A stretch of DNA of 35,450 nt from Synergistaceae bacterium (lineage in GTDB: Bacteria; Synergistota; Synergistia; Synergistales; 79-D21), in NCBI GenBank assembly GCA_029267465.1, contig JAJUIT010000004.1, positions 1 through 35,450 on the forward strand, read 5' to 3'. Of this stretch, positions 743-14,019 are shown one piece after another. The notes beneath the pieces were generated by a model. That model saw only the letters and a list, made by a program, of their open reading frames with translations, was not told the origin of the DNA and did not search any database. Made by a program: the position numbers and the translations under genes. Each line of letters starts with the position of its first letter. Position 1 is the stretch's first letter.

Positions 743-798
743 TTGTAACACTCCTGTAACTTTCGCGTAAAACGCCCGTGATTTCCCGCCGGTATACT
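743..798 (+). promoter_or_regulatory. Candidate Pho box and -10 upstream of pstS
   Basis: 7-mers in 11-nt register: TTGTAAC(743) CTGTAAC(754) GCGTAAA(765) CCGTGAT(776), then 10 nt, then TATACT (793-798). Confidence 0.75.
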
Positions 799-836: not shown

Positions 837-1652
837 GTGAAAAAGCTGAGCATCCTGTTTGTCGCGCTCTTCGTAGGGGTTCTTGCCGCCGGTGCGGCCT
901 TTGCCGGCAACCTGGTCGTGAACGGCTCCACCACGGTCCTTCCGATCTCCCAGTCCGCGGCAGAAGCCTTCATGGCGGAGAACAAGGACGTGAAGATCTC
1001 CGTTTCCGGCGGCGGCAGCGGCAACGGCATCAAGGCTCTCATCGACGGAACCTGCGACATCGCCAACTCCTCCCGTTTCATGAAGGATGCCGAGGCCAAG
1101 CTCGCCATCGAAAAGGGAGTCTACCCGGTGCCTTTTGCCGTCGCCATCGACGCCATCGTTCCGATCGTCAACCCCTCCAACCCCGTCAAGAACCTGACCA
1201 CGCAGCAGCTCCAGGAAATCTACACGGGCAAGATCACCAGCTGGAAACAGGTCGGCGGTGAAGACAAGCCGATCGTCGTGGTGGGACGGGACACCAGCTC
1301 GGGGACCTACGAGGTCTGGGAAGAAAAGATCCTGAAGAAGGAAAAGGTCACTCCGAAGGCTCAGGTTGTCGCCTCCTCCGGCGCCATGCTCCAGACGGTC
1401 TCCAGGAACAAGTACGCCATCGGCTACGACGGGCTCGGCTACGCCGACGACAAGTCCGTCAAGATGCTGACCGTCAACGGCGTCAAGGCCGATGCCAAGA
1501 CCGCCCGCAGCGGCAAGTACCCGGTTTCCCGCTACCTCTTCGTCTTCACCAAGGGCTGGCCGACGGGCGACGTCCTCGACTTCGTCAACTTCATGCAGAG
1601 CGATGAGGGACAGAAGATCGTCGTGAAGCAGGGCTTCGTCCCCCTGCGCTAA
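837..1652 (+). CDS. pstS: Phosphate ABC transporter substrate-binding protein PstS
   Basis: Signal peptide; NGSTTVLPISQSAAEAF, SGGGSGNGIKALIDGTCDIANSSR, GRDTSSGTYEVW motifs; followed by pstCAB-phoU. Confidence 0.95.
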   Translation: MKKLSILFVALFVGVLAAGAAFAGNLVVNGSTTVLPISQSAAEAFMAENKDVKISVSGGGSGNGIKALIDGTCDIANSSRFMKDAEAKLAIEKGVYPVPFAVAIDAIVPIVNPSNPVKNLTTQQLQEIYTGKITSWKQVGGEDKPIVVVGRDTSSGTYEVWEEKILKKEKVTPKAQVVASSGAMLQTVSRNKYAIGYDGLGYADDKSVKMLTVNGVKADAKTARSGKYPVSRYLFVFTKGWPTGDVLDFVNFMQSDEGQKIVVKQGFVPLR

Positions 1653-1708
1653 CACTTGGGACCAGGCCTGGGGAAGAAATCATCCTGGACAGGGAACCTG
1701 ACCGGGAA

Positions 1709-1735
1709 GCCCGCATCCAAAACAGGGGTGCGGGC
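1709..1735 (+). terminator. Intercistronic hairpin between pstS and pstC (attenuator or mRNA-stability element)
   Basis: GCCCGCA (1709-1715) pairs with TGCGGGC (1729-1735); no strong T-tract follows. Confidence 0.45.
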
Positions 1736-1767
1736 CCCGGCTTGGCCATGAAAGAGGGGATCCGGTC

Positions 1768-2649
1768 TTGAAGGAAGCGATGAAGGGAGACATCCTCCCG
1801 AGAAGGATCATTTCCGGCTTTGCCCTGACGGGGATGGCGATCATGATCTTCATCCTGTTTTTCCTGGTGAAGGAGAGCCTCCCCATCCTCAGGGAGACAT
1901 CTCTCCTTCAGATCCTTGGCGGGAAAGAATGGTACCCGACCTACGCCCCGCCGTCGTTCGGCATGCTTCCCCTGATCACGGGATCGGTCGCGGTGACGCT
2001 GCTTTCGGCCCTTCTCGCGATTCCCCTGAGCCTGGGGCTGGCGATTTTCCTCTCGGAGGCCTGCCCGCGCCTTCTTCGGGAGTTCTTCAAGCCCACCCTG
2101 GAAATCCTGGGGTTCCTTCCTTCCGTCGTCCTGGGCTTCATCGGGATGATGGTCCTCGCTCCCTGGCTGCAGGAACGTTTCGATCTCATGACGGGGCTGA
2201 ACCTTTTCAACGCCTCCGTCCTGATGGGCATCATGATCGTTCCGATCGTCGCCTCCATCGCGGAGGACAGCCTCTCCTCCGTTCCCGACGACCTTCGGGA
2301 CGCTTCCTACGCCATGGGAGCAACGAGGTGGGAAACCACGACCCGGGTTGTTTTTCCCGCCGCCCTGCCCGGAATCCTCGAGGCCTGCCTCCTGGGGGTC
2401 ATGCGGGCCGTGGGAGAAACGATGGTGGTCCTGATGGCCGCGGGAGGGTCCGCGGTGATCCCGAAATCCGTCTTCGACGCCGTCCGGCCCCTCACCTCCA
2501 CCATCGCCGCGGAGATGGGAGAAACCCCGGTGGGATCGGGACACTACCACGCCCTGTTTTTCGCGGGGCTGCTGCTGTTTCTCTTCACGTGGGCGATCAA
2601 CCTCTTCGCCGCCCGGATCGAAGCTCGCGGAAGGAGATGGCGCGAATGA
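1768..2649 (+). CDS. pstC: Phosphate ABC transporter permease PstC
   Basis: Multi-TM permease with EAA-like loop ([26 protein letters not shown]); position between pstS and pstA. Confidence 0.93.
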   Translation: MKEAMKGDILPRRIISGFALTGMAIMIFILFFLVKESLPILRETSLLQILGGKEWYPTYAPPSFGMLPLITGSVAVTLLSALLAIPLSLGLAIFLSEACPRLLREFFKPTLEILGFLPSVVLGFIGMMVLAPWLQERFDLMTGLNLFNASVLMGIMIVPIVASIAEDSLSSVPDDLRDASYAMGATRWETTTRVVFPAALPGILEACLLGVMRAVGETMVVLMAAGGSAVIPKSVFDAVRPLTSTIAAEMGETPVGSGHYHALFFAGLLLFLFTWAINLFAARIEARGRRWRE

Positions 2650-3500
2650 AATCCCGTTTTTTGAAGGACCGTCTCGCAACCGCCGTTCTTTGGAGCTGCA
2701 TGGGGGCTGTCCTCGTCATCCTGGGAGGGATCCTCGTGTTCCTCATCGTCCAGGGAGCGGGAGCCCTTTCCTGGGAGTTCTTCACCCAGCCGCCGCGCGA
2801 CTCCATGACGAAAGGCGGGATCCTGACCCCCCTGGTCGGAACGGTCCAGCTGGTGCTCGTGGCCATGGCTTTCGCGTTCCCGGTTGGCGTCTTGACCGCG
2901 GTCTACCTGAACGAGTATGCCTCCGGGGACCGGTTCACCAATATCCTTCGTCTCGCGGTCCGGAGCCTGGCAGGCGTGCCCAGTGTCGTCTTCGGGCTGT
3001 TCGGGCTGAGCTTCTTCGTGATTTTCCTCAAGTTCGGATCGAGCCTTCTCTCGGCTGGGCTCACCCTGGGATGCCTGGCCCTGCCCGTCATCGTCGGTGC
3101 GTCCGAGGCCGCCCTCAAGGCGGTGCCGCAGGACTACCGGGACGCCTCCTACGCCATGGGGGCCACCCGCTGGCAGACCATCCGCAAGGTCGTCCTGCCG
3201 GCCGCTTTCCCGGCGATCCTGACCGGCGGCATTCTGAGCATCGGCCGCGTTGCAGGCGAAACCGCCCCGATCATCTTTACCGGCGCCGCCTTTTTCACGC
3301 CCGACATCGCGAGAAGCCTCTTCAGCCAGGTCATGGCGCTTCCGTACCACGTGCTGATCCTGGCCACGGCCGGGACCAACATCGATGAGACGCGAGGCAT
3401 CCAGTACGGAACGATCCTCGTCCTGCTGCTGGTCGTCCTCGGAATCACGCTGACGGGCGTCATCTGGCGCGCGCGGCTGCGAATGCGTTCCTCCCGCTAG
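2646..3500 (+). CDS. pstA: Phosphate ABC transporter permease PstA
   Basis: ATG at 2646 preceded by AAGGAG and overlapping the pstC stop; [13 protein letters not shown] and [26 protein letters not shown] motifs. The ORF track extends it artificially to 1929. Confidence 0.93.
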
Positions 3501-3529
3501 CCTCGGGAAAAAGGAAAGGAGAACCCACG

Positions 3530-4288
3530 GTGTCCAGGATGAAATTCCAGATTTCCAACCTGAATCTGTATTACGGGCCAACCCAGGCGTTGAAGGACGT
3601 GTCGATCGACCTGCCCGAAAGCTCCGTAACCGCCTTCATCGGCCCATCGGGCTGCGGGAAAAGCACGTTTCTGCGCTGTCTGAACCGGATGAACGATTTC
3701 ATCCCGCGGTGCCGCGTGGACGGTCGGGTCCTTCTCGACGGAACCGACATTTACGCCCCGGGCACCGATGTCATCTCTCTCCGCAGGAGGGTGGGGATGG
3801 TTTTCCAGAAGCCGAACCCGTTCCCCACCTCCATCTTCGACAACGTCGCCTACGGTCCCCGGCTCCACGGGGTCACGGACCGGAGCACCCTGGAGGGGAT
3901 CGTCCGGCAGAGCCTGGAGGGGGCAGCCCTGTGGGATGAAGTCCGGGACAAGCTCTCTTCCCCCGCTCTCTCCCTTTCCGGAGGGCAGCAGCAGCGCCTC
4001 TGCATCGCCCGGGCGATCGCCGTCCAGCCGGAGGTCCTCCTCATGGACGAACCCACCAGCGCCCTGGATCCCATGTCCACGGCGCGAATCGAAGAACTCG
4101 TCAGGGAATTGAAAACGAAGTACACTGTCATCATCGTTACGCACAACATGCAGCAGGCTGCCCGCATTTCCGATCTCACCGCCTTTTTCCTCCTGGGCGA
4201 GATGGTGGAGGCGGGACCGACCCAGGACATCTTCACCTCTCCTGCCGACCGAAGAACGGAAGACTACATCACCGGACGGTTCGGATAG
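3530..4288 (+). CDS. pstB: Phosphate ABC transporter ATP-binding protein PstB
   Basis: Walker [10 protein letters not shown], signature LSGGQQQR, Walker [13 protein letters not shown]; PstB-like N-terminus. Confidence 0.96.
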
Positions 4289-4316
4289 GCAAGAACGGAG
4301 AAAGGGAGACCAGACC

Positions 4317-5006
4317 ATGACTGAACTCAACGTGAGAAAGACCCAGGACGAGGCCCTCGACCGCATCCGGGAACAGCTTCTCAAGCTCGGCAACCTGGCC
4401 CAGGATGCCATCCGGAAAGCCGTGTGGGCGCTCGAGAAGCAGGACGAGACCCTTTCGAGGGAAGTCCTGGAAGGGGACGACGTCCTCGATGCCCTGGCTT
4501 CCGAAATCGAAGAGGGATGCCTGCTTTTCACTGCACGTTTCCAGCCGGTTGCCCAGGACCTGCGGACCATTTCGGCGATCAACCGGATGGCCATCGACCT
4601 GGAGCGGATCGGGGACCTCGGGGTCAGCATCGCCAAGATCACCCGCTTTTTCTTCGGCAAGACCCTCATCAAGCCCCTGATCGACATCCCCCGAATGGCC
4701 GCGATCGTCGAGGAAATGATCGACGGGACGCTCCGCGCTTTCATCAACCGGGACGTCGAGGAAGCGAAACGGGTCTGCGCGATGGACGACATGCTCGACG
4801 ACCTGGACCGGCAGATCTTCAACGAGCTGCTCCTGCTGATGATCGAGAATCCCCGGGTGATCGAACAGGCCACCCAGCTCGTCCTGGTTTCCAGGGCCCT
4901 GGAACGGGCCGGCGACCACACGACGAACCTCGCCGAAAAGACGATCTACATGGTGACCGGGAAGCACGTGAAAGCCAGCGATTTTCGAAGGAAACGGGAG
5001 GAATAG
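4317..5006 (+). CDS. phoU: Phosphate transport system regulator PhoU
   Basis: PhoU repeats (ExARDIA-like: RTISAINRMAIDLERIGDLGVSIAK; ALERAGDHTTNLAEKTIYMVTG); operon position. Confidence 0.94.
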   Translation: MTELNVRKTQDEALDRIREQLLKLGNLAQDAIRKAVWALEKQDETLSREVLEGDDVLDALASEIEEGCLLFTARFQPVAQDLRTISAINRMAIDLERIGDLGVSIAKITRFFFGKTLIKPLIDIPRMAAIVEEMIDGTLRAFINRDVEEAKRVCAMDDMLDDLDRQIFNELLLLMIENPRVIEQATQLVLVSRALERAGDHTTNLAEKTIYMVTGKHVKASDFRRKREE

Positions 5007-5009
5007 CTC

Positions 5010-5726
5010 TTGGCGGGCGAGCGTATCCTGGTTGTCGACGACGAACTCGCGATCTCCGAATTGATCTCCGAGGCCCTCAAGCGGCAGGGGTACCGCATCG
5101 ACACGGCTTCCGACGGCGATACCGCCCTGGAAAAAGCGGAAACCACCCTGCCCGATCTCATCCTGCTGGACCTCATGCTGCCCAAGCTGGACGGCTGGGA
5201 GGTCTGCCGCAGGCTCAAGAACCAGGCCTCGACACGGCGCATCCCCATCATGATGCTCACCGCCCGCCGGGACGAGCGGGAAGTCATCGCGGGCCTGGAA
5301 ATCGGGGCAGACGACTACCTGAAAAAGCCCTTCTCCCTGGGGGAGCTGGTCGCCCGGGTCAAGGCCCTGCTGCGGAGGAGCGCTCCCGATCAGGCCTCGG
5401 AGAAGGGAGTCCAGATCGGTCCCCTGAAGGTCGATTTTGTCCGGGAAGAAGCGTTCCTTTCCGGGAACCTCCTTTCCCTGTCCCCGACAGAATACCGCCT
5501 GCTGGAAACCCTGGCCCGCCACCCCGGGCGAATGGTGAGCCGCGACGAGCTTTTGGCCAAGGTCTGGGGGTACGTGGTGGGCGACACCCGGACGGTGGAC
5601 GTCCACGTGTTCAGGCTGCGCAGGAAGATCGAGGCCGACCCCGAAAACCCGAGGCTGCTACACACCGTCCGGGGGCGGGGGTTCCGGCTGGACTGGGAGG
5701 AAAACCATGAAGACCCTGCGAGGTAG
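5010..5726 (+). CDS. phoB: OmpR/PhoB-family response regulator
   Basis: Receiver domain (VDDE, LLDLMLP, LTAR, KPF) plus winged helix (SPTEYRLLETLARHPGRMVSRDELLAKVWGY); adjacent to phoU and phoR. Confidence 0.9.
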   Translation: MAGERILVVDDELAISELISEALKRQGYRIDTASDGDTALEKAETTLPDLILLDLMLPKLDGWEVCRRLKNQASTRRIPIMMLTARRDEREVIAGLEIGADDYLKKPFSLGELVARVKALLRRSAPDQASEKGVQIGPLKVDFVREEAFLSGNLLSLSPTEYRLLETLARHPGRMVSRDELLAKVWGYVVGDTRTVDVHVFRLRRKIEADPENPRLLHTVRGRGFRLDWEENHEDPAR

Positions 5727-7449
5727 GATGTTCGCCCTCGTGGCGGCGACGATCCTGCTGGCCCTTGCCCTGGGACTCACCTTCGTCACGGACGTTCTTC
5801 GGGACCGGCTCAAGGAACAGGCCAACCGGGAGCTTTCCATCCAGACGGCCGCCTTGACGGAGGTCATCCAGACCCAGGGCCTGGAAGCGGTTTCGGCAAA
5901 CCTGGACGAATGGCACCGCCTCCTCGGGGGACGCATCACCATCATCAGCGAAAACGGGCGGGTCCTCCTGGACAGCCTGACGGACGCGGAAAGCCTGGAA
6001 AGCCACGGCCGAAGGCCGGAGGTCAAGGCTGCCCTCGAAGAAGGGCAAGGGCAGGATATCCGCTTCAGCCGAAGCATCGGCACGAACATGATGTACCTGG
6101 CCCGGAGGGCCAAAACCCCCGACGGCCAAGATCTGATCGTGCGGACAGCCTACCCCCTCTCCTACCTTGAGGGGATCGTTTCCGCCGCCCGGAACCGGCT
6201 CATGATGGGGCTTTTCCTCGCGGCCGCGGTGGCCGTGGCCATCGGAACGCTTTTCCTGCGGGGGATCACCCGCCCCTTATCACGGCTGACGGAAGCCGCC
6301 ATCCGCCTTGAACGGGGGGACCCGGCGGTCTTCCCGATGGACGGGACCGAGGAGGTCCGCACCCTTTCCCGGGCCCTCCAGAGAATGGCCGACCGCCTGC
6401 AATCCTCCATGGAGGAAACCCTGAAGGAAAAAACGACCCTTCGAGCGCTCCTTGAATCCCTTCCGGTCGCTGTCCTGGTCGTCGACAGCCGCGGAAGCGT
6501 CGCCTACGCGAACCAGGCCCTGGGAACGTTTCTGAGGGAGAAACCCGAGAAAATCGAGGGGCTTCCTGTCCAGGGCATCCTCAAGGCCCCGGAGCTCACC
6601 GGGCTCATCGAAAGGGCCCGGGCCGGGCAGGCCAGCCAGGTTTCCTTCATCCTCCGCGAGAAGGAGGAACGCTTCATCAACGCCCAGGCCGCGCCGACTC
6701 CCTACGGAACGGTGGCGGTGCTGGCCGACCTGACGGAACGCCATCGAATGGAAGAGGCCAAGAGCGCCTTTGTGGCCGATGCCAGCCATGAACTGCAAAC
6801 CCCCCTTACGGTCATCCGGGCGGCAACCGAGCTGCTGGCGGACGACTCCCTTTCGGAGGAGGAGCGGCACCGTTTCCTGCAGAGGATCATCGAACAGCAG
6901 GAACGGATGACCGGTCTGGTCGAAGACCTGCTTCTCCTTTCCAGGCTGGAGTCCGGGGTGCCCGTGGAACGGTCGGAAAACGTGGACCTTTCGGCGCTTG
7001 TGTCGTCGCTGGTCGAAGGAGCCCGCCTGGCACCGGAGGCCGAGAAGCTGCAGTGGGAGGTTTCCCTCCCCCCGAAAGCGGAGGCCAAGGCCCGCCAGGA
7101 AGAGTTGCGGAGGGCCTTCGGCAACCTGATCGACAACGCCGTCAAGTACACCCTCAGGCGTTTCGGGGAAGGGATCGGAGGGGTCATCCGGATTTCGCTC
7201 GAACGGAAAGAGAATGGGTGGCTTTTCTCCATCCAGGACAACGGCGTGGGGATCCATCCCTCCATGCTTGACCGGATTTTCGAGCGGTTCCAGCGGGCCG
7301 AAGCGCATCGAAGCCGGAACCACGACGAAAAAGGGGGCTACGGGCTGGGCCTTTCCATCGCCAAGCGGGTGGCCGAAAGCCACAAGGGCTGGATCCGCGT
7401 GGAGTCCCCCGGCGAGGGAGCCAAGTTCCTGCTCTGGCTCCCCGCCTAG
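5707..7449 (+). CDS. phoR: PhoR-like sensor histidine kinase (two TM, HAMP, PAS, HisKA, HATPase)
   Basis: H-box ADASHELQTPLTVI, N-box NLIDNAVKYT, G boxes DNGVGIHPSMLDRIFERF and GYGLGLSIAKRVAESHKG; overlaps the phoB end. Confidence 0.9.
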   Translation: MKTLRGRMFALVAATILLALALGLTFVTDVLRDRLKEQANRELSIQTAALTEVIQTQGLEAVSANLDEWHRLLGGRITIISENGRVLLDSLTDAESLESHGRRPEVKAALEEGQGQDIRFSRSIGTNMMYLARRAKTPDGQDLIVRTAYPLSYLEGIVSAARNRLMMGLFLAAAVAVAIGTLFLRGITRPLSRLTEAAIRLERGDPAVFPMDGTEEVRTLSRALQRMADRLQSSMEETLKEKTTLRALLESLPVAVLVVDSRGSVAYANQALGTFLREKPEKIEGLPVQGILKAPELTGLIERARAGQASQVSFILREKEERFINAQAAPTPYGTVAVLADLTERHRMEEAKSAFVADASHELQTPLTVIRAATELLADDSLSEEERHRFLQRIIEQQERMTGLVEDLLLLSRLESGVPVERSENVDLSALVSSLVEGARLAPEAEKLQWEVSLPPKAEAKARQEELRRAFGNLIDNAVKYTLRRFGEGIGGVIRISLERKENGWLFSIQDNGVGIHPSMLDRIFERFQRAEAHRSRNHDEKGGYGLGLSIAKRVAESHKGWIRVESPGEGAKFLLWLPA

Positions 7450-7472: not shown

Positions 7473-8141
7473 TTGCTGCGCGTGAAATTCAAAACCCGGC
7501 CGGCGGCAGCCCTGCTGACGGCCGGGTTCTTCCTTTTCGCGGCCGGAGCCGGATGGGCCATTGGCTCTTTCGACCCGGCGGTTTTAGACTCCCTGGGAAA
7601 AATGGGATGCTCGCCAAGCGACCTGCTTGCCTGGGGCGAAGAGGTTCCCGGCTCCTGTCTGTTCACGGTCTGGGCCTGGCCGGCCGCCCGGCAGAGGGAA
7701 GCCGCGGCCCTGGCGCTCCACATCCGGTCCGTGAACCCTCGGTTGACTCCCCGGGCCTCCTGGAGGATGGCCGGAGCCTTCGTCGTCGCTTCCGTGCGCT
7801 TCGGGCTCCCTCTCGACCTGGCCGTCGCGGTGGCTCGTGCCGAGAGCGGATTCAACCCTGCCGCGAAAAGCCGTGCGGGAGCGACCGGCGTGATGCAGGT
7901 AAGGCCGGACGTCCACCGCGATCTTTTGGCTTTCCGCTTCGGGGCCCCGGAGGCCTGGAGCCTCGTGGACCCGGAGAAGGCCGTTCTGGCCGGGTGTTTC
8001 CTCCTGGCCGGCTACCTGAGGGAGGAAGGAACAGTGGAAAGGGCCCTGTCGAGATACCTGGGCAGCTTCGACGCTTCGTACCAGGACCGAGTACGGCAAT
8101 ACCGCAGGGAGGTTCAGCTCAACATAAACAGTTCCCCTTGA
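7473..8141 (+). CDS. Secreted SLT-type lytic transglycosylase domain protein
   Basis: Signal peptide; AVAVARAESGFNPAAKSRAGATGVMQVRP (ES..NP.A.S..GA.G.MQ). Confidence 0.8.
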   Translation: MLRVKFKTRPAAALLTAGFFLFAAGAGWAIGSFDPAVLDSLGKMGCSPSDLLAWGEEVPGSCLFTVWAWPAARQREAAALALHIRSVNPRLTPRASWRMAGAFVVASVRFGLPLDLAVAVARAESGFNPAAKSRAGATGVMQVRPDVHRDLLAFRFGAPEAWSLVDPEKAVLAGCFLLAGYLREEGTVERALSRYLGSFDASYQDRVRQYRREVQLNINSSP

Positions 8142-8232
8142 GGTTCCACCCCCCTTGCCCCAGGGTCTTTTTAATATCCTAAAGTTTGCCTTTTAAAAAA
8201 AGACGCCAAACTGTACATAAGCAAATCTCCTA

Positions 8233-8261
8233 TAGACAACTTTTTCCCGTGTGGATACAAT
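8233..8261 (+). promoter_or_regulatory. Candidate sigma70-type promoter upstream of the GT8 gene
   Basis: TAGACA (8233-8238), 17-nt spacer, TACAAT (8256-8261), inside an AT-rich intergenic stretch. Confidence 0.45.
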
Positions 8262-8306
8262 ACTTATGCGAATCAATTAAATACATCTCATGTTTATCAA
8301 TGAGGA

Positions 8307-9366
8307 ATGGTTTGCTTGCCTACTCTTTCGGCCCCAACCCAAATCCCGCACGGGAGTCTTGCGCAGACAACACGGAATCGCTGCGGGGATGCAGCTGACC
8401 TGGAAACCGCAGAGGGAATTCACATCCTTTTTTGCGCGGATGAGCACTATGCTGCCCACTTGGGAACGGCGATCTCCTCGATCCTTGCCAATGCCGCCCC
8501 AACGGATCGGTTGCATTTTCACGTGCTCTCCGACGGACTCTCACCCGAGACGGAACGGAAACTTAAGGCAACGGTAGAGGGAGAAACCAGTTCGATCCGG
8601 TTCCTCCAGTCCGATCCAGACCTGAGAGAATATGCCCTGGCCGTGTCTCTGGAATCAAAAATTCACGACCTGCCAAAACTGAGCTACTACCGCCTGAGGA
8701 TGGGCTCCCTCTTCCCTGAACTGCGCCGCCTTCTCTACCTCGACTGTGACTTGATTGTGCGCGGAAGCCTGTCTCCCTTGTGGAACACCCCCTCTCCTTG
8801 GAAACACACTAGCCGCGGTCGAGGACCAGGGGAGGGAGGCCTTAATGGATAGCGAAAAGCGAACGCTGGGAGTCCAGCGGTATTTCAATTCGGGGGTGCT
8901 CCTCGTTGACCTGGATGCCTGGCGAAGCCGCGAAACGGAAGATCGACTCCGCGAATTCGGGGAAAAGCGCCGTGACATCCCGAGACTCTGGCACGACCAG
9001 ACGATTTTGAACGCCGTCCTCGGAAACGAAATCCTGTTCCTTCCGGTTGAGTGGAACCTCATGGTGCATTGCCTGCAAGAAGGACGACGAGGCCAGCCGG
9101 AAGCTGCACGGGCCTCAGTGGCCCACTTCACAGGAAACGCGAAACCCTGGCGCTACAATCCGCATGCCCTTCCCTTCTCCGAAGAATATTGGAGATACAG
9201 AAGCACGACTCCCTGGGGAAAGGATTTTCCCTTCAATTCTCTAAAACGGCAATTCCTTTGGGAAAAGATCCGCCTTGCCTGGAGACACCCGAGGGATTTC
9301 CTGCAATCCCTTATCGGGCTTGAAGCCCCATGGGAACCCGCCATCCCGAAAGGACTGGAACCCTAA
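8307..9366 (+). pseudogene. Family 8 glycosyltransferase (LPS glucosyl/galactosyltransferase type), split by a frameshift
   Basis: N-terminal half in the 8307 frame (IHILFCADEHYAAHLGTAISSILAN...LLYLDCDLIVRGSLSPLWNT); C-terminal half in the 8755 frame (PLLGNTLAAVEDQG...RYFNSGVLLVDLDAWR...HDQTILNAVL). The junction lies in ACACCCCCTC near 8785-8795. True start codon uncertain. Confidence 0.8.
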
Positions 9367-10353
9367 ATGAAACACAGGGAAAGGATATCCGTAATCATTC
9401 CCATGTTCAACGCGGCATCGACGATCGGGGTCCCGCTCGAATCCCTTGCCCGACAGGATTTCTGCCCCGAAGAGATCGAAGTCGTCCTGGTGGACGATGG
9501 TTCTACCGACAACACGGTCCAGGTTGCCCGAAGCTTCCTGGAGCGGGTCCGGTTCAGCTGGAAAATCATGGAAGCCAACCACCAAGGGGTCAGTTGCGCG
9601 CGAAACGTCGGGATTGAAAACGCAGCGGGAGAATATGTCTTTTTCCTCGATGCCGATGATGAACTGCCGCCGGATTTCCTCTCAACGGTTTTCTCCTCCA
9701 TGGAGAGGAAAAGCGCGGATCTGGCGTGGATCTGGAAGGTTTTTCACGAAAAAGAGCTCCGCAAACTGGCAAGGCACCCGATCTCCAAGACAGAAGACGG
9801 CCCCTCCTGCCTCCTGGCTTACCTGAAAAAACCCTGGAATGCCCAGGTATTCGTTCGCCGCTCGCTGCTGGACGAGTGCGGAATCCGTTATTGCCCAGGT
9901 CTGAAATATGCTGAGGATGTCGATTTCTTCGTGCGGCTTCTTTTCAAAGCCCAGAGGGTTCATGTGGAAACCGCAACCTGTTACCTCTACCGCAGGAATC
10001 CGCACCAGGTGACTCGAACGATCAACCGAATTAAAGCCCGGGAAGCGGCGGACCGGACGTTTCACCAGCTATCATGCTTTCTGGAGGCCCAGAACGCCCC
10101 ATTTGAAATTATCGCCGAGATGAAACGCTTCGAGGCAAGGTCGCGGCTCAACCTTCTCAGGGAACTATGGAAAAACAGGCTTTTAAGCAAGTTCTTTGGG
10201 CTGATGGAGAGCGCAGAAACGAAGGAAATCCTTACACGTTCTCAAAAAGGGTTTCTTTCGCCAAAATGGATTTTCAGAGCCTGGTTTCTAGAGACCGTCT
10301 TTTTCCTGGTAAAGCGATTCCCTCAATTTTTCCAAAACAAACCTTCTCGTTAA
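9367..10353 (+). CDS. Family 2 glycosyltransferase
   Basis: ISVIIPMFNAASTIGVPLESLARQ, VLVDDGSTDNT, GVSCARNVGIENAAGEYVFFLDADDELP. Confidence 0.92.
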   Translation: MKHRERISVIIPMFNAASTIGVPLESLARQDFCPEEIEVVLVDDGSTDNTVQVARSFLERVRFSWKIMEANHQGVSCARNVGIENAAGEYVFFLDADDELPPDFLSTVFSSMERKSADLAWIWKVFHEKELRKLARHPISKTEDGPSCLLAYLKKPWNAQVFVRRSLLDECGIRYCPGLKYAEDVDFFVRLLFKAQRVHVETATCYLYRRNPHQVTRTINRIKAREAADRTFHQLSCFLEAQNAPFEIIAEMKRFEARSRLNLLRELWKNRLLSKFFGLMESAETKEILTRSQKGFLSPKWIFRAWFLETVFFLVKRFPQFFQNKPSR

Positions 10354-10369
10354 ACCTGCCCCCCTGATT

Positions 10370-10409
10370 CGGCAACAACCCCGTACCATCCCTGCAACAG
10401 TTGGGTTAC
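10370..10409 (+). promoter_or_regulatory. Degenerate Pho-box-like array upstream of the Agt-like gene
   Basis: 11-nt register: CGGCAAC(10370) CCGTACC(10381) CTGCAAC(10392) GGGTTAC(10403); no convincing -10 identified. Confidence 0.35.
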
Positions 10410-10486
10410 TCCCCCTTTCCTGCAGGCGGCGGACCTGCCATCCTTTTCCCGGAATCGCTTGAAACCGGGAAAGGGAGGTGCCCGTT

Positions 10487-11518
10487 TTGAAGATCTGCAT
10501 CGCCACGGACGCCTGGACTCCCCAGGTCAACGGAGTCGTGAGAACCCTGACGGAAACGGAAAGACGCCTCCGGAAGATGGGACACGAGATCTTTCTGCTG
10601 ACCCCGGAGCGCTTCGCCACGGTCCCCTGTCCCACCTACCGGGAAATCCGCCTGGCCTGGAGCCTTTGGGAAGTCGATCGTTTCCTGCGGGACTTTCTCC
10701 CCGACGCGATTCACATCGCGACGGAAGGGCCCATTGGGTTCTCCGTCCGGGCCTGGTGCCTCAGGGAAGGGTTCCCCTTTACGACTTCGTTCACGACCCG
10801 TTTTCCCGAGTATGTTCGTTCGCGCTTCGGGCTTTCCGCCGAACTGCTGTACCAGGGGCTGCGCTGGTTTCACGCCCCCTCCTCGGCGGTGATGGTGGCC
10901 ACCGCTTCGCTTCAGGAAGAGCTACAGGGACGCGGTTTTGCCAATCTCGTCCGATGGTCGAGAGGGGTGGACACCAGCCTGTTTTGCCCCTCGCTGCCAC
11001 GCCATTCCGTTCGAAACCGTCCGGTCTTCCTTTACGTCGGCCGCGTTGCCGTTGAGAAAAATCTCCCGGCCTTCCTGGACCTGGATTTGCCCGGGACAAA
11101 GCGCGTTGTGGGCTCGGGCCCCGACCTGGAGGCTCTCCGCAGGACCTACCCGGCCGTGGAGTTTTCCGGCACCCTGGAAGGGCTTGATCTTGCCCAGGCC
11201 TACGCAGAGGCCGACGTTTTCGTGTTTCCCAGCAAAACCGACACCTTCGGGATCGTCATGCTGGAGGCTCTCGCCTGCGGAACGCCTGTCGCCGCCTACC
11301 CCGTGACGGGTCCTCGAGATATCCTCAGGCAGCACGTGACCGGAGTGATGGATCTCGATCTTCGGAAGGCCTGCCTGGAGGCCCTTTCCCTTGACCGGGC
11401 CGCCTGCCGGCAGGACGCCCTTCTATGGTCCTGGGACCGGTGCACGCGGCAATTCCTGGAAAACCTCCGGCCGCGTTCCTTTTCGAAGCTCGTTCACAAT
11501 CCTGTTGGAGGGATGTAA
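10487..11518 (+). CDS. GT4 family glycosyltransferase, Agt-like (diacylglycerol glycosyltransferase candidate)
   Basis: MKICIATDAWTPQVNGVVRTLTETERRLRKMGHEIFLLTPERFATVPCPTYREIRLAW...DAIHIATEGPIGFSVRAWC...LVRWSRGVDTSLFCP; C-terminal EALACGTPVAAYPVTGP. TTG start at 10487 is 8 nt after GGAGG; the track uses an alternative GTG at 10478. Confidence 0.8.
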   Translation: MKICIATDAWTPQVNGVVRTLTETERRLRKMGHEIFLLTPERFATVPCPTYREIRLAWSLWEVDRFLRDFLPDAIHIATEGPIGFSVRAWCLREGFPFTTSFTTRFPEYVRSRFGLSAELLYQGLRWFHAPSSAVMVATASLQEELQGRGFANLVRWSRGVDTSLFCPSLPRHSVRNRPVFLYVGRVAVEKNLPAFLDLDLPGTKRVVGSGPDLEALRRTYPAVEFSGTLEGLDLAQAYAEADVFVFPSKTDTFGIVMLEALACGTPVAAYPVTGPRDILRQHVTGVMDLDLRKACLEALSLDRAACRQDALLWSWDRCTRQFLENLRPRSFSKLVHNPVGGM

Positions 11519-11547
11519 AACCCCTGTAAGGGCGATCGGATTACACT
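11491..11547 (+). promoter_or_regulatory. Candidate Pho box and -10 upstream of the GT28 gene
   Basis: 11-nt register: CGTTCAC(11491) CTGTTGG(11502) ATGTAAA(11513) CTGTAAG(11524), then 11 nt, then TACACT (11542-11547); same geometry as the pstS site. Confidence 0.65.
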
Positions 11548-11596
11548 CGCGGCGAACCCGTTAGGGCTTTAATCCTTTTATCCGGGAGGAATCCGA

Positions 11597-12742
11597 TTGA
11601 AACCCGTCCTTTTGGCCTACTCCGGCCCCGGGCAGGGGCACAAGATGGCAGCCATGGCCCTGCGGGAAGCCTTTCTAGCCGAAAAGGCGCCCGTCATCTG
11701 CCTGGACACCCTCACCACGGCGATGCCGTTTTTCCGGTTCCTCTACGCGGGGCTCTACAAGGGAATGGCCCGTCACGCCCACACGGCCTGCGAGCAGGTT
11801 TACCGGCTCACGGACCGGGTCCGCCGGAAGAGTTCCATGGGGCGGGCCATTGACTGGTGGAGCCTTCAGAACACAACGGTCTTCCAGGCCCTGGCGAAAA
11901 CCCTCTCACCCGAAGCGGCCGTCTGCACCCATTTCCTTCCCATGGCCCTCCTGTCCCTCATGAGGGAACGGGGGGACTTCAACGGGCAAATCCACGTCGT
12001 CATCACCGACTACGATCTCCACGGTTTCTGGGTCGACCCTGGAGTGGACCGCTATTACGCCGCCTCGGTCCAGGTCCGCGACCGGCTGGCCGCCAGGGGA
12101 ATCCCCGACGCACGGATTGCGGTCACCGGCATCCCGGTTCGGGAAAGCTTTACGAGGCTTGCCCTTTCACCGCGGATTCCCAGGCCGCTTCCGCTTCGGA
12201 TTCTCTTCCTGGCCTATTCCATCGCCCGCGAAACCGCGCTGTCGATCATCGACAGCCTCTCATCGATCGGTCCGTCCGTCCGCCTCGCCGTCGTCGGGGA
12301 AAGGGAACTCTCGAAGAACCGCCCCAAAGCTTCGGTCAGCTGGTTTGAACGGGTCGAAAACCTGGCCCCTCTCATGGCAGACGCCGACCTCCTCGTCACC
12401 AAGCCGGGAGGGCTGGTCTGCTCCGAAGCGCTCTCGGCGGGGCTGCCCATGCTCTTCACCTCCCCGATCCCCCTGCAGGAAACCCTGAACGCACAGTACC
12501 TCCAGGGGCAGGGCGCCGGGATCTTCTGCGAATCCCCGGCGGCCCTGGCAGGAGAGGTCCGAAGGATCCTGGCCGATCCCGGAATCCTTCGGAGGATGGG
12601 ACACGCCTGCCAGCGCATGTCTGCCCCGGACGCCGCCCGGGCAATCGCCCGCAGGGTCCTCGGCAGGCGCCCCCAGGTTCCGGAATGGGAAGCCCCCGCT
12701 GCCCTCTGTCACCCCGGAGGAAACCGGCCGTGCTTTCCGTGA
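11597..12742 (+). CDS. GT28/MGDG-synthase-like glycosyltransferase (diacylglycerol glycosyltransferase candidate)
   Basis: SGPGQGHKMAAMALREAF, VITDYDLHGFWVDPGVDRYYAAS, VTGIPVRESF, LLVTKPGGLVCSEALSAGLPMLFTSPIPLQETLNAQYLQGQGAGIF. TTG start preceded by GGGAGGA. Confidence 0.82.
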   Translation: MKPVLLAYSGPGQGHKMAAMALREAFLAEKAPVICLDTLTTAMPFFRFLYAGLYKGMARHAHTACEQVYRLTDRVRRKSSMGRAIDWWSLQNTTVFQALAKTLSPEAAVCTHFLPMALLSLMRERGDFNGQIHVVITDYDLHGFWVDPGVDRYYAASVQVRDRLAARGIPDARIAVTGIPVRESFTRLALSPRIPRPLPLRILFLAYSIARETALSIIDSLSSIGPSVRLAVVGERELSKNRPKASVSWFERVENLAPLMADADLLVTKPGGLVCSEALSAGLPMLFTSPIPLQETLNAQYLQGQGAGIFCESPAALAGEVRRILADPGILRRMGHACQRMSAPDAARAIARRVLGRRPQVPEWEAPAALCHPGGNRPCFP

Positions 12743-13614
12743 GAACCGCCTTCCTGTCCGACCTTCACCTTGGCTCCCGGTGGTGCCGGGCAGAGGAGCT
12801 TTCGGCCTTCCTCGATCTCCTCGAGTGCGAAACCCTTTTTCTCGTCGGAGACATCGTCGACGGGTGGTCCCTGAAGAGGAAATTCCGCTGGCCGGATGCC
12901 CATGCGGAAGTCCTGGCGAAAATCCTGGATTTCGCCGCAAACTGCCGGGTCGTCTACGTGACCGGAAACCATGACGCGTTCCTGGACAGGCTTGCGGGGC
13001 GGAAACTGGGCAACATCGAAATCCGCCTTTCCGCGATCCACGAGACCGCTCGGGGGATTCGGATGGCGGTTTTCCACGGAGACGAAGTGGACCGGGTGTC
13101 CTCCGAACAGCCCTGGCTGGCGCATCTCGGCGATTTGGCGTACACGGCCGCCCTGTGGGCAAACCGGGGAGCCAACGTTCTCAGGAGGGGGTTGGGGCTT
13201 GAATACCGCTCCTATTCCAGGATGCTCAAGCAGAAGGTCAAGGAAGCCGTCAACTACGTCAGCGGCTTCGAGAAAAAACTGGCTGAAGAGGCGCGCCGCC
13301 TCGGCACAGACGGAGTCATTTGCGGCCACATTCACAAGCCCGCCTGGGAAGAAACCCGCGGTGAAGTTTTCTACGGAAATTGCGGCGATTGGGTTGAAAG
13401 CTGCTCCGCCCTGGTGGAAAAGCATGACGGGGAGATGGAGGTCCTGGACTGGGAGACCCTGAAGCAAACGGCAGGGGTCCCAGTGGTGACCCAAAACGGA
13501 GAGATGGTCTACCGGTTTCCCCTGCCGGAAGCGGCTTCCTTCTGGGCAGGCGCCCTGCTTTCCATGAACGTGGGTCCCACGGATCTTCGGGACGTCCTGG
13601 AGACACGCCGGTGA
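12730..13614 (+). CDS. Calcineurin-like metallophosphoesterase, PlcP-type phospholipase C candidate (COG2908, often annotated UDP-2,3-diacylglucosamine diphosphatase)
   Basis: FLSDLHLGSRWCRAEEL, LVGDIVDGWSLKRKFRWPDAHAEV, VYVTGNHD, VFHGDEVD, VKEAVNYVSGFEKKLAEEARRLGTDGVICGHIHKPAW, NCGDWVESCSALVEKHDG. GTG start at 12730. Confidence 0.8.
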   Translation: MLSVRTAFLSDLHLGSRWCRAEELSAFLDLLECETLFLVGDIVDGWSLKRKFRWPDAHAEVLAKILDFAANCRVVYVTGNHDAFLDRLAGRKLGNIEIRLSAIHETARGIRMAVFHGDEVDRVSSEQPWLAHLGDLAYTAALWANRGANVLRRGLGLEYRSYSRMLKQKVKEAVNYVSGFEKKLAEEARRLGTDGVICGHIHKPAWEETRGEVFYGNCGDWVESCSALVEKHDGEMEVLDWETLKQTAGVPVVTQNGEMVYRFPLPEAASFWAGALLSMNVGPTDLRDVLETRR

Positions 13615-13840
13615 CCCTCGATCCGGCTTTCCTCCTGGAGCAAATCCTGTCGGAGAAGGCCGCTCGGATTGCCTTCCAGCCCATCGTGGACCTTTCCGAT
13701 GGGTCGTTTTCGGTCACGAGGCCCTTGCCAGGGGAAAGGGAGCCCTGGACGATTTCGGAGCAGGGAACTCCGGGCTCCGGATCCTGATGGAGTGCTGACC
13801 GTCTTTTCTCAAGCTCGACCGCGGCATCATTTTCCAAGCC
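13611..13840 (+). pseudogene. Decayed EAL-domain (c-di-GMP phosphodiesterase-like) gene remnant
   Basis: GTGA overlap with the upstream stop; frame 1 LLEQILSEKAARIAFQPIVDLSDGS, then +1 frame VFGHEALARGKGALDDFGAGNSGLRILMEC*, then a third frame FLKLDRGIIF. These are consecutive EAL motifs with a large internal deletion. Confidence 0.75.
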
Positions 13841-14019
13841 CCTCCGGTTTTTCCGCCTGCTTCTGGCAGCGGAACCTCCAGGTTGGAATCCCTTTAAATT
13901 AACTTTCGTTTCTTTCAAAATTCCAGGGATTCCCGAATCTCCCGCGATCGGCACTGCTCTCCGCCTATTAGTAAACTACTTTCTACTAGAGGTTTATATT
14001 TAACATTGGAGTACAATAC

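Follow-up and report, generated by a model that had tools for sequence, protein, structure and literature searches.

The 35,450-nucleotide stretch of Synergistaceae DNA analysed here (the window; one contig, C13, of a 2.06-Mb genome in 184 contigs with an estimated completeness of 94%) carries three adjacent, co-directional genes, encoding an Agt-like GT4 glycosyltransferase, a GT28 glycosyltransferase of the UgtP/MGDG-synthase (monoglycosyldiacylglycerol synthase) type and a metallophosphoesterase, within which we recognize what is probably a PhoB-inducible, PlcP-based unit for membrane-lipid remodelling. It is a known kind of pathway, with a different main glycosyltransferase and with an Agt-like enzyme of changed active site at its side. 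PlcP is known to supply diacylglycerol (DAG) for glycolipids under phosphate stress, and plcP often lies in an operon with a glycosyltransferase gene (PMC4796936, PMC8528852). A sequence-only reading of the window had proposed that the three genes serve the replacement of phospholipids by glycolipids when phosphate is scarce, and its three open reading frames (ORFs) were confirmed. The genome and its relatives were examined by targeted searches, and all counts for the phylum refer to a sample of 188 genomes, nearly all from one order.

By comparison with characterized enzymes, the phosphoesterase is assigned to PlcP and not to LpxH, the UDP-2,3-diacylglucosamine hydrolase of lipid A synthesis. 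It matches PF00149 and is 48% identical to the Pseudomonas aeruginosa PlcP orthologue PA3219 (WP_003091510.1, whose gene adjoins that of Agt1) and 44% identical to the Sinorhizobium meliloti orthologue, which is encoded beside an N-acyl-homoserine lactone synthase and a LuxR regulator and which, from this sinRI neighbourhood, we take to be SMc00171. The window protein is thus about as close to either of these as they are to each other (47%, in agreement with the 46% given for PA3219 and S. meliloti PlcP in PMC8528852). The placement against LpxH that had been proposed as a check bore out the PlcP-like designation: identity to Escherichia coli LpxH is 24%, all 42 of 42 near-invariant PlcP columns, the metal site included, are retained, and 22 of those 42 are absent from LpxH (e.g. 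GNHD in PlcP vs GNRD in E. coli LpxH). In a 62-row tree the protein falls among the PlcPs, and a very long branch (9 changes per column) sets LpxH apart. Most plasmid records do label PlcP relatives as 'UDP-2,3-diacylglucosamine diphosphatase', and LpxH models give weak matches, far short of cut-off (39/134 bits; 25/190 bits), but LpxI, the alternative enzyme for the same step, is encoded 4 kb from LpxC on contig C104 of this genome, and both genes also occur in 9/9 relatives tested, plcP-bearing or not. We consider a role in lipid A synthesis extremely improbable, and the presence of LpxI, the GNHD motif and the tree placement led us to rule out LpxH as an identity. A phmmer search of the PDB with the PlcP sequence returned no match at 0.01. 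Most PlcPs of the phylum lie outside a largely proteobacterial group of the tree; those of G044 (L018) and G093 (L022) are inside it, nested within an alphaproteobacterial group, which suggests a separate acquisition. In a Parabacteroides distasonis plasmid record (L134 4977-6898), a PlcP homologue (44%) adjoins a glycosyltransferase weakly similar to the GT28 of the window.

The GT28 ORF is overlapped by that of PlcP by 13 nt, and its product resembles DAG glycosyltransferases of the UgtP type, a likeness that concerns predicted function only. The earlier assignment to GT28 and MGDG synthases is upheld by matches to PF06925 (MGDG_synth, 90.9 bits, 1e-25), to PF04101 (22.9 bits, barely above cut-off) and to the UgtP model NF010135 (2e-41). 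With UgtP, a processive DAG glucosyltransferase, and plant MGD1 it shares membership of GT28 and the MGDG_synth domain; it differs from UgtP in reaching 142 bits against an equivalog cut-off of 500 bits. The best PDB match is a processive DAG beta-glucosyltransferase (9wde), followed by MGD1 (4wyi). Within the phylum, the close GT28 subfamily (E below 1e-45, ahead of a clear score gap) occurs in 23 genomes, 21 of which also have plcP (Fisher p 2e-15, uncorrected for kinship), and the two genes adjoin in several families. Because the subfamily and plcP co-occur across the phylum, we regard GT28-PlcP as the likely core of the Pho-regulated unit. The conserved pair, as judged from these genomes, is GT28-PlcP rather than GT4-PlcP, and the remodelling scheme put forward earlier is well supported in silico in its logic but not in its choice of partner for PlcP.

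PhoB control of gt28-plcP is well supported by the promoter predictions. In pstS promoters of other genera the motif [CT][CT]GT[TA]AC is repeated every 11 bp, its last unit 16 nt before TATACT. Twelve promoters of this kind, all from outside the genus, served to build a PhoB-box weight matrix, to which a hand-set -10 term was added. Scanned across the window, the matrix ranks the pstS promoter first and, second, a site that overlaps the GT4 stop codon and lies 50 bp before GT28, in a gap of 78 bp. No position in 20 Markov-shuffled windows equals the combined score of this site, and the element is conserved in the relative G008, where the contig ends. In other families, the best locus-wide match likewise lies just upstream of gt28-plcP in G122, G185, G025 and G123, and of plcP in G036. 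The five gt28-plcP operons tested, that of the window included, score 13.2-22.6 (p 8e-5), vs a median of 1.9 and a 99th percentile of 15.8 for 259 background upstream regions; scores of the other plcP genes vary. Of the Pho-box-like sites claimed earlier, then, the one immediately upstream of GT28 stands, but the three genes do not form a single Pho-regulated unit: control of GT4 by the same box was rejected, as the predicted site is downstream of GT4, between it and GT28.

PlcP and GT28 could instead make glycolipids constitutively, for instance as an anchor or for membrane curvature, and not for sparing phosphate. Several plcP copies without a Pho box would fit such a role, as would a distant UgtP-like GT28 paralogue that is widespread in the phylum, this genome included (G000:C9:1173-2252; L195), but the Pho-box match and its recurrence upstream of gt28-plcP in other families speak for phosphate control, as does a polyphosphate kinase gene (ppk) after plcP in three genomes (G122, G043 and G036; L034 14663-15598, L038 8602-12185, L046 4391-7503), and we judge constitutive synthesis unlikely. 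A CHAD-domain gene also follows in L038 and L046; ppk and CHAD neighbours link plcP to phosphate storage. Separately, a family of roughly 1,220-aa proteins that match no Pfam model is encoded directly upstream of a plcP copy without a Pho box (L041 9037-12699 on the minus strand, L038, L040, L042).

From the computed identities, gene overlap, predicted Pho box and co-occurrence, we infer the following activities, products and inducibility for the remodelling unit. At low phosphate, PhoR-PhoB would activate the promoter at 11513-11547, and gt28-plcP would be transcribed as a single unit. PlcP, as a metal-dependent phospholipase C, would cut the phosphate head group off phosphatidylethanolamine and phosphatidylglycerol, both of which are likely present because the genome encodes Psd and PgsA, to leave DAG. 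GT28 would then add a sugar to DAG, so that a glycolipid replaces the phospholipid and phosphate is regained. The Agt-like GT4, presumably expressed from a different promoter, probably glycosylates the same DAG or the GT28 product.

Several observations weigh against this scheme. plcP is present in just 39/188 genomes of the phylum, and searches of four congeneric genomes did not find it; in one of these (G008), however, the contig stops 35 bp before the expected GT28 start. Pho-box scores are below 12 in 12/20 plcP operons, particularly for the copies beside the 1,220-aa gene, so that some plcP genes of the phylum are not obviously under Pho control. The matrix scan of the window found no comparable Pho box ahead of GT4. 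Finally, the catalytic His of GT4 is replaced by Thr106, with the catalytic Asp (D255) retained.

This GT4 had been read as Agt-like, and much about it agrees with that reading. It matches PF13439/PF13692, shares 51% identity with the Agt1 orthologue of P. aeruginosa, an enzyme that yields MGDG in E. coli (PMC8528852), and has the Agt motifs GRVAxEKN and FPSxTDTFG in the form of GRVAVEKN and FPSKTDTFG; in a tree it forms a clade with the enzymes of six other phylum genomes, next to plcP-linked proteobacterial enzymes (support 94/94). The positions of the DAG contacts Arg163 and Trp320 are kept, as W-S-R-G-V-D and S-W (alignment to P. aeruginosa Agt1; GTcp numbering deduced). An identity as an ordinary Agt is nevertheless not supported. 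The SAR11 enzyme of the clade, GTcp, relies on a His104-Asp256 dyad, and its His104Ala variant is inactive (PMC8231724). The His column, around which the alignment is ungapped and unambiguous, holds His in 57/57 proteobacterial rows and also in five further homologues carried on plasmids (one is interrupted), vs Thr in five and Met in two of the seven phylum genomes with this GT4. Among the near-invariant columns of the proteobacterial rows it is the sole one altered in all phylum members (eight phylum rows, the window sequence being counted twice). With a dN/dS of 0.039/0.293 for the comparison of the window with G008, the gene is under purifying selection and is not decaying. We infer that the His-to-Thr change alters donor or acceptor use by GT4; an inactive enzyme is conceivable, though less in keeping with purifying selection. 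The label "Agt" needs qualification. More tentatively, the Agt-type GT4 of this phylum may have dropped the catalytic His, treated as essential elsewhere in the family, for Thr or Met and adapted to another donor or acceptor, such as the monoglycosyl-DAG that GT28 would produce. A UgtP-like GT28 accompanies this GT4 in every genome but G008, whose contig breaks off. Were this true, the phosphate-stress glycolipid here would differ from proteobacterial MGDG and glucuronosyldiacylglycerol (GADG).

The surroundings of GT4 suggest another home for it, namely a surface-polysaccharide island comprising GT8, GT2, GT4 and GT28, with PlcP adjacent by chance. On the plus strand the gene order is pstS-pst-pstB-phoU-phoB-phoR (837-7449, pstA also being among these genes), an slt transglycosylase gene, GT8, GT2, GT4, GT28 and the metallophosphoesterase gene, beyond which lie a second slt gene and, on the other strand, galE (Table 1). 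GT8 and GT2 are thus just upstream of GT4, and the segment enclosed by the two slt genes (window 8063-13946; L186, L187) varies within the genus: in G009 about 1.7 kb separates pst-pho-slt1 from slt2-galE, and an ORF in that interval resembles the O-antigen-ligase-type (Wzy_C) ORF sited before GT4 in G008. Yet GT28 has the DAG-glycosyltransferase domain and pairs with plcP in other families and genome-wide, and although GT4 stands alone beside unrelated genes in four other phylum genomes, 6/7 genomes with the Agt-like GT4 have plcP (p 3e-4). No GT8 or GT2 gene was found at the plcP loci of relatives, save for one weak GT2 match, so that GT8 and GT2 probably belong to a polysaccharide set of their own. 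The island is weakened as a home for GT4 by the solitary GT4 genes of those four genomes, and as an account of the glycosyltransferases as a whole it is improbable, somewhat more so than constitutive synthesis. The three genes also lie where the earlier reading had them, about 3 kb downstream of pst-phoU-phoBR, as measured from the end of phoR to GT4. As to the gene starts, the TTG of GT4 is preceded by the Shine-Dalgarno-like GGGAGGTG, within which an upstream GTG at 10478 falls, and the TTG of GT28 by GGGAGGAAT. The GT8 gene consists of two overlapping ORFs (8307-8852, 8755-9366); they match successive halves of PF01501, and the frameshift that splits them is either genuine or an artefact of assembly.

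Table 1. Positions in the window of the genes and sites discussed, with the basis of each assignment
Feature	Position	Strand	Basis
PhoB box (four 11-bp repeats) with -10 TATACT, pstS promoter	743..798	+	Matrix rank 1 in window
pstS, phosphate-binding protein	837..1652	+	PF12849; orthologues in most of phylum
pstB	3530..4288	+	TIGR00972 above cut-off
phoU	4317..5006	+	TIGR02135 above cut-off
phoB-type response regulator	5010..5726	+	Best NCBIfam match TIGR02154 PhoB, 250 bits, under the 296 cut-off
phoR-type sensor kinase	5707..7449	+	Place after phoB, sequence; synteny with relatives G008, G009
Agt-like GT4 glycosyltransferase, 343 aa, TTG start	10487..11518	+	51% to P. aeruginosa Agt1; tree
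ACG codon, Thr106 at catalytic His column (His104 of GTcp, His103 of P. aeruginosa Agt1)	10793..10795	+	Alignment
Predicted PhoB box ATGTAAA-ACCC-CTGTAAG, 11 nt, -10 TACACT	11513..11547	+	Matrix rank 2 of 70,850 window positions
GT28, UgtP/MGDG-synthase type, 381 aa, TTG start	11597..12742	+	PF06925, NF010135; PDB matches
PlcP-type phospholipase C (metallophosphoesterase), 294 aa	12730..13614	+	Identities to PlcPs; 42 conserved columns

Among known systems, the PlcP-Agt1 locus of P. aeruginosa (PA3219-PA3218; PMC8528852) resembles that of the window in its orthologous PlcP, its Agt-clade GT4, the placement of both genes at one locus and the Pho box found there; it differs in having the order plcP-agt, no GT28 and the catalytic His kept in Agt1, and the Pho box of the window precedes GT28, not GT4. 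The S. meliloti PlcP SMc00171 (PMC4796936) is alike at the level of sequence identity noted above, and Agrobacterium Agt and SAR11 GTcp (PMC8231724) share both Agt motifs and the catalytic Asp with the GT4 of the window, in which, unlike in GTcp, His104 has become Thr106. The closest precedent for GT28-PlcP comes from type Ia methanotrophs (PMC9239053), where plcP is linked to a DAG glycosyltransferase of the Bacillus subtilis (UgtP-like) type and not to Agt; these belong to another phylum, have no Agt homologue immediately by plcP, and the product is a predicted one. In Desulfovibrio alaskensis G20 (PMC5193443), an anaerobe of another phylum, phosphate limitation swaps >90% of the phospholipids and an Agt homologue (Dde_3613) makes the glycolipids; PlcP is unmentioned in that paper. 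The novelty is accordingly smaller than the sequence-only reading implied, since PlcP-Agt is well characterized and the pair of plcP and a UgtP-like gene has been noted (PMC9239053), although the open-access literature searched contained no account of PlcP or of Pho regulation from this phylum.

Phosphate-sparing lipid remodelling has been known chiefly in Proteobacteria and marine bacteria; these results would add an anaerobic lineage in which its regulatory signature can be read from the DNA. Anaerobes with agt homologues have been named as candidate makers of glycolipids in anoxic waters and sediments (PMC5193443), and GT28 may be a second enzyme type to seek for those glycolipids of anoxic settings whose makers are unknown. 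The natural His-to-Thr/Met swap, conserved in seven genomes and under purifying selection, would allow the choice of sugar and acceptor by GT4 lipid glycosyltransferases to be tested directly.

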